DNA of 20,802 nt from a virus. Of this stretch, positions 7,781 through 20,144 are shown in pieces. The stretch spans positions 1 through 20,802 of IMG/VR virus record IMGVR_UViG_3300044641_003383; one strand, 5' to 3'. Numbering within the stretch: position 1 is the stretch's first letter; each line of letters begins with the position of its first letter. Both the position numbers and the translations under genes were made by a program. A model generated the notes under the pieces. That model was not told the origin of the DNA. It saw only the letters and a program-made list of their open reading frames with translations, and did no database searches.

Positions 7781-8268
7781 TCCATCCAACTGCTATTATC
7801 TACGATAACGTGATTATTGAGCATGGCGTGTTTATCGGGCCATATTGTGTGATAGGTTCGGAACCTGAATGGAAAGGAAAGGAGGGCGAAGGTAAGGGGG
7901 TTATAATCAGATCTGGCACAAGGCTTACAGGATTTGTTACAATAGATAGTGGAGCGGAAGGCGTTACATATATCGGGGAGAATTGTTACATCATGAAGCA
8001 TACCTATATTGCGCACGATGTTACCTTAAAAGATAACGTGACCATATCGGCTGGCGTTAGTATTGGCGGTTTGTGTACAATAGGACAAAATACAAATATC
8101 GGAATGAATGCAGCTATTCATCAAAAGGTAAAAGTACCGGAGGGCTGCATGATCGGGATGGGCGCTGTGATTACAAAAAGAACTGAGATGGAAAGGTTTT
8201 GTAAATACGCGGGTGTACCTGCTAAATTTATAGGATACAATGACAGGCATAATATTTCTAAATTATAA
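7759..8268 (+). CDS. LpxA-like hexapeptide-repeat acyltransferase
   Basis: A 169-residue left-handed beta-helix acyltransferase. Hexapeptide-type repeats run from IHPTAIIYDNVIIEHG (residues 8-23) to about residue 139. The segment HTYIAHDVTLKDNVTI (81-96) followed by IGMNAAIHQ (114-122) matches the LpxA/LpxD pattern in which a histidine of an AHD motif (here His86) is the catalytic base for transfer of an acyl group from ACP or CoA to a sugar. It lacks the helical C-terminal domain of full LpxA (about 260 residues), so the substrate may be another amino- or hydroxy-sugar. The frame extends upstream to 7621, but that part is inside the membrane-protein gene; the ATG at 7759 is chosen. It overlaps the glycosyltransferase gene by 29 bases, suggesting that they act together. 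Confidence 0.83.
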   Translation: MGNKEIIIHPTAIIYDNVIIEHGVFIGPYCVIGSEPEWKGKEGEGKGVIIRSGTRLTGFVTIDSGAEGVTYIGENCYIMKHTYIAHDVTLKDNVTISAGVSIGGLCTIGQNTNIGMNAAIHQKVKVPEGCMIGMGAVITKRTEMERFCKYAGVPAKFIGYNDRHNISKL

Positions 8269-8911
8269 GCGCAAAGACTATTCAATAAACGTATTGCACT
8301 CTATTAAGCAAATAGGATGCGAATATGAATTATTAGAGGTTGAAATGTTTGGCATTGCGGCGGCTATCAATTACGGCTTTAAATATTTCTTTGAAGAGAA
8401 AGGATATAATAACGTGGCTATTTGTGCAAACGATATTATGATGCCAGCGGGGTGGCTTGATGCTATGGTTACGGCGGCGGATGCGATACCTGAAACGGGA
8501 ACGAGTGCTATTTATTGCGTGGAGCATTTACCTCCTGTTCAAAACATAAACGGCGTTAATGTGCATCCAGCGTGGGGTGTTTTTGGGTGTAGCTTAGTAA
8601 CTAAAAAAGCATTCGATACGATAGGATATTTCAATACTGATCAGGATCCATACGGAATGCAGGATAGTGATTATTCGTATAGGTTACATAAAGCAGGGTT
8701 TTTGAATTATTACATACATGGCATGAACTCTACCCATGTAGGGGCGGATGTTGGCAATGGCTCTGAATATCGTAAAATGAAAGACGAAGGTTTAAATAAG
8801 GCGGGGGCAATTTATGGTAAGTGGTGCCGTATTTATGATGAAGGAAAAGTTTACTTACCTTATGAGCAAGAGAATTATATTATCGAAATGAATCAGTATC
8901 ATGAACAATAA
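8240..8911 (+). CDS. Glycosyltransferase, GT-A fold, family 2-like
   Basis: A 223-residue enzyme predicted to transfer a sugar from a nucleotide donor. The N-terminus GIIFLNYKRKDYSINVLHSI is the usual first strand and helix of GT2 enzymes. The metal-binding DxD position is represented by CANDIMMP (Asn65, Asp66), and the acceptor-side motif by DPYGMQDSDYSYRLHKAGF (136-154), the counterpart of the ED-type catalytic motif. It is short for GT2 and has no membrane helix, so it is cytoplasmic. It overlaps the acyltransferase by 29 bases and the next gene by 11 bases. Targets could be host surface glycans or virion proteins. Confidence 0.8.
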   Translation: MTGIIFLNYKRKDYSINVLHSIKQIGCEYELLEVEMFGIAAAINYGFKYFFEEKGYNNVAICANDIMMPAGWLDAMVTAADAIPETGTSAIYCVEHLPPVQNINGVNVHPAWGVFGCSLVTKKAFDTIGYFNTDQDPYGMQDSDYSYRLHKAGFLNYYIHGMNSTHVGADVGNGSEYRKMKDEGLNKAGAIYGKWCRIYDEGKVYLPYEQENYIIEMNQYHEQ

Positions 8912-17577: not shown

Positions 17578-18501
17578 ATGGAAAAAGGATTACCGGTATA
17601 TAAACTGACAATAAATGAGAATGTAGATAGCACTGTTGAGGTTGACGCGGTGGCGTTAGTGGACGTGCCCGCTATTGGCGTTGGGTTTTATGCTTTCAAT
17701 GAGCAGGAATTTGAAAGCTATACTGATTATCCTAAGCAGGCGAGTGAGAATGCAAAGGTGGCTTTGAGATGGGCTGAGGAAAATGGATGGGGTGATTGCG
17801 GCACGGCGGTAGGTAAGCAAAGAGCAAACCAATTGGCAAACGGTGAAGCGATAAGCCGTGACACGATTGCACGAATGGCAGCCTTTGAAAGGCATAGGCA
17901 AAACTCAGATAAGGAATTAGGCGACGGGTGCGGGCGGCTTATGTGGTTAGCGTGGGGAGGTGATGCGGGTGTTGAATGGGCACAGCGTAAACTTGAGCAA
18001 ATAGATAGGCAAAAGATGCAATCCTTTGCGGTGGTGAATGAAGAGGAGCGTTTTGTAGTTGGTGCGGCAATGATTCCGGACAAACCCATTTTCAGACGCG
18101 ATAAGGATGGAACGGAGTATTATGTTTTCTTTACAAAAGATACGATCCGGACTATTGCGGAAAAGTTTTATCGTAAAGGCTTCCAGAATAACGGGAACGA
18201 AATGCACGACAGCTCAAAGCCTGTGGATATGGTTTTCTTTCAATCGTGGATTGCAGATGAAAGTAAAGGCATACCTAAAATGAAGCAATTTGAAAGCCTC
18301 CCAGACGGCACATGGTTTTTAGGTGCTAAGGTTAATTCAGACGAAGCATGGGCAAAGGTGAAAGACGGTACCTTCAAAGGATTTAGCGTAGAGGGTATGT
18401 TTGATATGATGCCTATCAAAATGTCGATGAAGATGACAGAGGAAGCAGCCGCAAAGGTTGTAATTGATCAGTTAAAAGAACTTTTGCAAAATGTCCACTA
18501 A
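17578..18501 (+). CDS. XkdF-like prohead serine protease
   Basis: Capsid-maturation protease of the XkdF family. After an opening strand VYKLTINENVDSTVEVDAVA comes a separate module (residues about 50-142) with YPKQASENAKVALRWAEENG, then WGDCGTAVGKQRANQLANG, GCGRLMWLAWGGDAGVEWA and no catalytic residue of the protease. The protease core resumes at about 150 with VVGAAMIPDKPIFRRDKDGT. NEMHD (His210) and GFSVEGMF (Ser270) supply the likely catalytic pair. So the module is inserted between strands of the protease domain, as known in other phage prohead proteases. It overlaps the next gene by 11 bases and precedes the scaffold gene. Confidence 0.82.
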   Translation: MEKGLPVYKLTINENVDSTVEVDAVALVDVPAIGVGFYAFNEQEFESYTDYPKQASENAKVALRWAEENGWGDCGTAVGKQRANQLANGEAISRDTIARMAAFERHRQNSDKELGDGCGRLMWLAWGGDAGVEWAQRKLEQIDRQKMQSFAVVNEEERFVVGAAMIPDKPIFRRDKDGTEYYVFFTKDTIRTIAEKFYRKGFQNNGNEMHDSSKPVDMVFFQSWIADESKGIPKMKQFESLPDGTWFLGAKVNSDEAWAKVKDGTFKGFSVEGMFDMMPIKMSMKMTEEAAAKVVIDQLKELLQNVH

Positions 18502-18763
18502 TCTGCAACCCATCCCGCAGGGGCTAATAGGTGCGAAGCCTATTATTGATTTCATTGTTGAAACAGGCGGGGCTATGGAGCCGGGCGATACTGACTACCA
18601 AAATTTAGCTTTTATCTTTGCGCCGTCGGTATTTATTGATGGGCTTTTATTAACTTATGAGGTAAGAACAGATCGGAGGTATGTAAGTTTTAACGGATCC
18701 ACGCAAACGATAACAATAAACGGAGGCGTGAATGAAGGTGAGAACGTACAAATATTTTATTAA
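18491..18763 (+). CDS. Small beta-rich phage protein, 90 aa
   Basis: A 90-residue protein with a beta-rich composition: PIIDFIVETGG, LAFIFAPSVFIDGLLLTYEV, RYVSFNGSTQTITINGGV. There is no signal peptide or metal motif. Its place between the prohead protease and the scaffold-like gene suggests a minor head or decoration protein, but I cannot recognise a family. The ATG lies within the end of the protease gene. Confidence 0.62.
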   Translation: MSTNLQPIPQGLIGAKPIIDFIVETGGAMEPGDTDYQNLAFIFAPSVFIDGLLLTYEVRTDRRYVSFNGSTQTITINGGVNEGENVQIFY

Positions 18764-18787
18764 TCAAACCAAACCAAACAAATGAAA
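18760..18787 (+). repeat. 28-base leader repeat, copy 1
   Basis: Copy one of an exact 28-base direct repeat; the other is at 19077-19104. It spans the last bases before and the first codons of the 96-residue gene, contains the three-fold CAAAC run, and ends at ATGAAA. Both copies place the start codon at the same place within the repeat. Confidence 0.9.
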
Positions 18788-19072
18788 CACAAATTTGAAA
18801 ACGGGTGTATGTGGGAGGGCGGCGGCTTTGAAATAGAAACAAATTATGAGTGTTGTGAAAATGATGGAGGTGAGCCTTGTAAACATTGCCATTCTATTGA
18901 AATAGAAGAAAATAAAACTGTTTACGACAATTCAATTTATTATAAAAAAAAATGGATTTGCCCAAATGTTGTTATTGCTGTAAATGAAGGCGGGTTTAAT
19001 TCGACCGGAGTTTGTCTTGATTGTATAATAGAAGCGGCTCAAAGTTTAGAATTATTAACAACTTCAAAATAA
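18782..19072 (+). CDS. Cysteine-rich small protein, 96 aa
   Basis: A 96-residue protein with eight cysteines: Cys9, Cys24, Cys25, Cys33, Cys36, Cys60, Cys78 and Cys81, including two CxxC pairs (CKHC, CLDC) and a CC pair. Paired cysteines suggest one or two zinc sites. It is acidic overall, with no signal peptide. It lies between two exact copies of a 28-base leader, so it may be a cassette gene. AT-rich inside and isolated from neighbours in function; no family recognised. Confidence 0.62.
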   Translation: MKHKFENGCMWEGGGFEIETNYECCENDGGEPCKHCHSIEIEENKTVYDNSIYYKKKWICPNVVIAVNEGGFNSTGVCLDCIIEAAQSLELLTTSK

Positions 19073-19076
19073 ATAT

Positions 19077-19104
19077 TTAATCAAACCAAACCAAACAAAT
19101 GAAA
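19077..19104 (+). repeat. 28-base leader repeat, copy 2
   Basis: Second exact copy of the 28-base repeat at 18760-18787, preceding the glycosyltransferase gene. The two copies start 317 bases apart with the whole Cys-rich gene between them. Confidence 0.9.
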
Positions 19105-20094
19105 ATTTTAGTATTGACGCAATCCTTTAGCGGTTGCGGTTACCACAGATTGATGCTGCCAGTTTCTTTGATGCCAAAAGAAAAGGCACGAATTACCGAT
19201 GTTTTCCCCGAAGATTTTGATTATGACATAGTGAACATAAATAGGCTATGGCCTAAAGATGATCTTATTGAGCTACGCAAAAAGCATGGGTTTAAATTGG
19301 TAGTTGATGTAGATGACTTCTGGATTTTGGATAATTATCATTTGGACTTTGATACGTACAATAAATACAATGTCGATGGTCGTATTATAAAGCATTTGAA
19401 AGAAGCGGATCTGGTTACGTGTACCCATGAGCGGTTAGCGGAAAGGGTTTATTATCACAACAAAAACGTAGAGATTTTACCTAATGCAATCCCTTACGGT
19501 CAAAACCAATTTACAACGGAGCGCAATGCCTCCGATTTGGTGAGGCTGTTTTGGGCGGGCGGTATATCGCATGAAGAGGATTTAAAGATATTGCGCCCGG
19601 TCACAAAGCGGCTATTGAATAGTGATTTGAAGGATAAAATAAAAATGGTTGTCGGCGGATATTCAGATAGCAATATAACTGAGCAAACGATATGGAGGAA
19701 GATGGTCAGCTACTTTACAGCGGATGCGCTTTTGCCGAATATGGCTTATAGGGGTTTGCCGGTATTTGAGTATTATCAGATGTATTTAGAATCTGATATT
19801 AAATTGATCCCCCTTCGCAAAAGTACATTTAACGGATATAAATCTAACTTAAAGATATTGGAAGCGGCGGGTAAGGGTGTACCAGTTATTGTTTCAAAAG
19901 TGGATCCGTATTTAGGATTCCCGGAAGACGTGGTTTATTATGAGAATTGGGATAAGAATATCCGGGCGCTTGTAGAAGATAAGGATCTAAGGGAGGCAAA
20001 GGGTAGGGCGCTGTTTGAATACTGCAATAAGAATTATAACTTTGATGAAATCAATACCCGCCGAAAAGATTTGTTCAAAAGTTTGTGTTCATAG
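19099..20094 (+). CDS. Glycosyltransferase, GT-B fold, family 4-like
   Basis: A 331-residue GT-B glycosyltransferase. The N-terminal domain shows GCGYHRLMLP (12-21), where phage and bacterial GT4-like enzymes have their acceptor loop, plus LVVDVDDFW (68-75) and VTCTHERLAE (107-116). The C-terminal domain begins FWAGGISHEEDL (151-162) and holds the donor-site motif NGYKSNLKILEAAGKGVPVI near 243-263, an E-x7-E-like arrangement. EILPNAIPYG (125-134) is also typical. It sits between the Cys-rich gene and the scaffold gene inside the structural cluster and is followed by a terminator, so a role in glycosylating a virion protein or a host surface sugar is possible. It is soluble. Confidence 0.82.
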   Translation: MKILVLTQSFSGCGYHRLMLPVSLMPKEKARITDVFPEDFDYDIVNINRLWPKDDLIELRKKHGFKLVVDVDDFWILDNYHLDFDTYNKYNVDGRIIKHLKEADLVTCTHERLAERVYYHNKNVEILPNAIPYGQNQFTTERNASDLVRLFWAGGISHEEDLKILRPVTKRLLNSDLKDKIKMVVGGYSDSNITEQTIWRKMVSYFTADALLPNMAYRGLPVFEYYQMYLESDIKLIPLRKSTFNGYKSNLKILEAAGKGVPVIVSKVDPYLGFPEDVVYYENWDKNIRALVEDKDLREAKGRALFEYCNKNYNFDEINTRRKDLFKSLCS

Positions 20095-20115: not shown

Positions 20116-20144
20116 CCCCCTGCTTTTCAAAGTGGGGGTTTTTT
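20116..20144 (+). terminator. Rho-independent terminator after the glycosyltransferase
   Basis: CCCCC at 20116-20120 and GGGGG at 20134-20138 enclose a 13-base loop in which CTTTT and AAAG can also pair, followed by six T's. It is 21 bases after the glycosyltransferase stop. Confidence 0.75.

Follow-up and report, generated by a model that had tools for sequence, protein, structure and literature searches.

Classical phage morons come with a promoter and a terminator of their own. Among sequences placed at gene starts, the Start-Associated Sequences (SAS) of cluster K mycobacteriophages are short, phage-specific elements just upstream of start codons; they measure 13 bp (GGGATAGGAGCCC), precede many genes per genome, show partial Shine-Dalgarno (SD) pairing, are conserved among these phages, with essentially no occurrence in host genomes, and have a proposed role in translation initiation (PMC3203893). 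In Flavobacterium johnsoniae, SD-independent initiation is favoured by adenines at -3, -6, -12 and -13 together with low structure (PMC6847099).

Here, we propose that a cysteine-rich (Cys-rich) gene was inserted by recombination at the ancestral leader of a phage glycosyltransferase (GT) gene, the leader acting as an SD-independent landing site for ribosomes. We consider this explanation as a whole likely, and within it we infer the recombination route, the translation role and the host phylum. The locus lies in the window, by which we mean the whole 20,802-nucleotide stretch analysed (IMG/VR record IMGVR_UViG_3300044641_003383, positions 1 to 20,802), and comprises the following features:

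18491..18763, + strand: 90-aa upstream gene with a conserved C-terminus (...NGGVNEGENVQIFY), its end abutting leader copy 1
18750..18781, + strand: leader copy 1, extended (AAATATTTTATTAATCAAACCAAACCAAACAA), at the position of the sole GT leader in relatives
18760..18787, + strand: 28-bp exact direct repeat, copy 1
18782..19072, + strand: Cys-rich ORF, 96 aa (CKHC ... C ... CLDC), of foreign composition
18782..19098, + strand: inserted unit of 317 bp (Cys-rich ORF plus second leader), its ends slidable within the repeat, absent in 32 relatives
19071..19098, + strand: leader copy 2, extended (AAATATTTAATCAAACCAAACCAAACAA), preceding the GT
19077..19104, + strand: 28-bp exact direct repeat, copy 2
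19099..20094, + strand: 331-aa GT (PHROG 7162, E 6e-63)
20117..20144, + strand: intrinsic-terminator-like hairpin and T run, 3' of the GT

The original prediction, that an identical 28-base leader precedes two consecutive genes, the second of them a glycosyltransferase, was verified in all its parts. The sequence TTAATCAAACCAAACCAAACAAATGAAA stands in both copies at a spacing of 317 bp, with three CAAAC units and a terminal ATGAAA that places the start codons at 18782 and 19099, and the PHROG match identifies the second product as a GT. No other exact direct repeat in the window reaches 20 bp. Chance can be ruled out as its origin, the longest exact repeat in 200 Markov-1 shuffles being 13-18 bp, and a 20-base core allowed up to 3 mismatches finds only these two sites in the window (expected 0.00). 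When one 4-base gap is allowed, the similarity of the copies reaches upstream through AAATATTT, about 10 bases beyond the 28-bp repeat; the copied element is therefore about 40 bp, slightly longer than originally stated.

To which of the two genes does the leader belong? With the GT as query, IMG/VR yielded 38 loci, of which L004-L036 without L019 form a set of 32 relatives, each including the start of the GT and at least 82% identical. Every one of the 32 has a single G-free, A/C-rich and CAA-rich leader directly 5' of the GT, and the Cys-rich gene and a second leader copy are absent from all of these related contigs; thus the leader belongs to the GT. It is absent from the more distant L037 and L038 (60%). 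Aligned with the relatives, the window stands apart by a clean insertion of 317 bp, and no relative carrying both the Cys-rich gene and the GT was found. The closest GTs, those of L004 (96%) and L005 (95%), lack the insertion, as do all more distant relatives, so that gain is the simplest reading. The earlier suggestion that the unit of leader and Cys-rich gene could be gained or lost is thus borne out as a gain by the window lineage, read from sequence comparison and known from one metagenome-derived virus record.

Since the insertion occurs in one record only and chimeras typically form at short repeats, a metagenome assembly artefact, joined chimerically at the shared leader, has to be weighed. 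We judge it highly improbable: the Cys-rich gene, a complete leader and the GT follow one another directly in one contig, the upstream join is in register, and a chimera would still require a real junction of Cys-rich gene and leader somewhere.

Two side observations concern individual loci. L019 (3014-4249) lacks the leader together with the terminal part of the 90-aa gene and GT codons 1-12, so that the 90-aa protein is fused in frame to the GT; this is either a true deletion or an artefact of assembly. L024 (3270-3318) and L040 (975-1023) contain an exact 25-bp direct repeat with a 24-bp spacing, the copies overlapping, apparently within a coiled-coil-like gene downstream of the GT.

Upstream of the leader, the relatives have the 90-aa gene (which then abuts the single GT leader), a protease gene or, in L020, a different 116-aa gene, and behind these differing genes it is unchanged. 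It would be possible to read this as a DNA element in the main, a short recombination 'linker' between modules that allows gene swaps before the GT. The element of about 40 bp (AAATATTT..TAAT..CAAACCAAACAAATG) does persist behind the 90-aa gene, the protease or the Cys-rich gene, with AAATATTT noncoding or read in different frames. However, AAATATTT is missing in L020 and L021, the 33 GT loci hold one insertion event only, and the element marks the GT start at a nearly fixed spacing and is G-free, as a translation leader would be. We hold a linker of this kind to be fairly unlikely. As to the 90-aa gene itself, its N-terminal half is variable and its C-terminal half strongly conserved (VFIDGLLLTY...RRYVS...NEGENVQIF) in the window (18491-18763) and in relatives, as would fit a structural protein in which one part can be exchanged. 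At the other end of the GT, a G+C hairpin followed by T is also found in relatives. A second glycosyltransferase-like gene of the window (8240-8911; PHROG 2456, E 9e-8) precedes the terminase region, and the phage thus has two sugar-transfer genes.

The Cys-rich gene is best read, from its sequence, as foreign and horizontally acquired, because its GC3 deviates (0.23 as against 0.40-0.44 in the three neighbouring genes examined) and its relatives sit only in unrelated phages with other leaders. The sole relatives found are in MW202573, where the homologue (51.7% over the matched stretch) adjoins a DNA adenine methyltransferase gene, and in L043, a viral contig of 140 kb (65%, again over the matched stretch). 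Their leaders are purine-rich and differ from the GT leader (TCACCAAAGAGGGTAATAAGAGGAATTTATG and TCACTTGGAGATAAAGTATG, respectively; the bases before the ATG are GAGGGTAATAAGAGGAATTT and TTGGAGATAAAGT). Weak matches to the Cys-rich gene within the GT phage family (E 0.02-0.7) were judged to be chance; most lie about 4 kb downstream of the GT, and those in L027 fall within a 629-aa ORF resembling a portal gene. The 96-aa product has 8 cysteines, and the CKHC, C60 and CLxC positions are invariant across the three homologues, which suggests a small metal-binding protein. A Pfam and PHROG search with the window protein gave no match, and a structure model (pLDDT 62) was uninformative as to fold, with no PDB match at E <= 0.001. 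No terminator-like site follows the gene, nearby promoter-like sites are not above chance, and no Bacteroidota-type promoter was found around it; with no promoter or terminator of its own detected, the gene is probably reliant on its operon and the borrowed leader.

How might the present arrangement have arisen? In the explanation we prefer, that of insertion at the GT leader, the ancestral state would be a G-free, CAA-rich translation leader of the late-operon GT in this phage family. The foreign Cys-rich gene would then have been inserted between the 90-aa gene and the GT through recombination at the leader, either by homology with an incoming segment of Cys-rich gene and leader or with duplication of the leader at insertion. 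The outcome would be one leader per gene, the Cys-rich ORF using the GT start signal and the GT keeping its own copy. Leader copy 1 occupies the place of the relatives' single leader, after the 90-aa gene, and copy 2 adjoins the GT, which is exactly the arrangement that recombination at the leader would give. The flank of copy 2 (ATAAATATTTAATC) recurs unchanged in part of the protease-direct clade (L026 among others), to which copy 2 is closer than copy 1. Judging from these flanks, the source of copy 2 may be another lineage instead of a tandem duplication, and ATAAATATTTAATC hints at homologous exchange with that other lineage. Neither an intermediate state nor a donor phage with the order Cys-rich gene, leader and GT was found.

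In light of the leader belonging to the GT, what might its role be? G is absent from the 19 nt before the GT ATG in 28 distinct sequences. In L021-L035 the last 12 nt of the leader are 92-100% identical to the window, and the synonymous third positions of the GT are only 50-59% identical. Other relatives have a shifted version (e.g. CAAATCAATCAACAAA), and the number of CAAAC units varies (3xCAAAC, 2xCAAAC, CAAATCAATCAAC). Of 153 starts in the phage family, 1% have an SD-like motif before them (3% when shuffled), as against 31% of 13 starts in MW202573. The leader is unstructured by prediction and has A at -6 in 33 of 33 GT leaders; in the window, C stands at -3, -12 and -13, three of the four favoured adenine positions. 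On this basis the leader probably acts as a putative unstructured, A-rich, SD-independent ribosome-landing site, of unproven initiation strength. The window leader is thus like the Kozak-like start regions of Bacteroidota described in F. johnsoniae in having no SD, in being A-rich and unstructured and in its A at -6, but unlike them in its C at -3, -12 and -13 (PMC6847099). The phage family itself consists of uncultivated tailed phages, probably of Bacteroidota, which we infer to be the host phylum; relatives of its primase are found mainly in phages of Cellulophaga, Polaribacter and Bacteroides, and also of Arthrobacter, at weak identity.

It had originally been suggested that the leader could give both genes a common translation signal in a host without reliance on SD pairing, and this holds in part. 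The low frequency of SD-like motifs and a G-free, predicted unstructured leader conserved before the GT speak for it; against it are the three C positions and the finding that the leader is private to the GT, standing before no other gene of the family (apart from the Cys-rich gene in the window). A general start signal of the phage is accordingly ruled out, with two copies in the window and one in each relative. The exact 20-mer has three matches in 84,980 cellular genomes, none of them Bacteroidota by record title, so that a leader common in Bacteroidota genomes is ruled out for the exact 20-mer. The frames after the three matches run for 2-15 codons to a stop, with no long ORFs.

This specificity to the GT within the family, and absence from gene starts in cellular genomes, would also suit a site bound by a regulator of phage or host origin (an sRNA or an RNA-binding protein), with the GT and, since the insertion, the Cys-rich gene under its control, and repeated CAAAC units would suit a single-strand-binding protein. 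Yet the number of units differs between relatives, and no candidate regulator or complementary RNA was found; we regard such a site as very unlikely.

Returning to the putative SD-independent leader, it resembles the SAS in being short, upstream of a start, conserved in the family and essentially absent from cellular genomes, and differs from them in being G-free, in having no SD and in serving one gene, or two after duplication (PMC3203893). The Cys-rich gene resembles phage morons and gene cassettes as a small foreign gene of deviant composition between conserved late genes in one family member: it is absent in 32 relatives with aligned flanks, and its GC3 deviates. Unlike classical morons, it has no detected promoter or terminator and uses a copy of its neighbour's leader. 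Thus, the Cys-rich gene is not a classical moron, and the locus is a new instance of the known insertion of gene cassettes and mosaicism in phages, with no new biological mechanism.

It is quite unlikely, in our estimation, that the G-free CAA-repeat GT leader is a portable start module, serving both as a seam for recombination and as a signal for SD-independent translation, by which incoming genes would be expressed on arrival in hosts unable to use their native SD leaders. What the locus does provide is a clear before-and-after case, in which an acquired gene that elsewhere has purine-rich, SD-like leaders now stands behind the native leader of an SD-independent lineage, and with it a testable idea of how foreign genes may become readable in SD-independent hosts.
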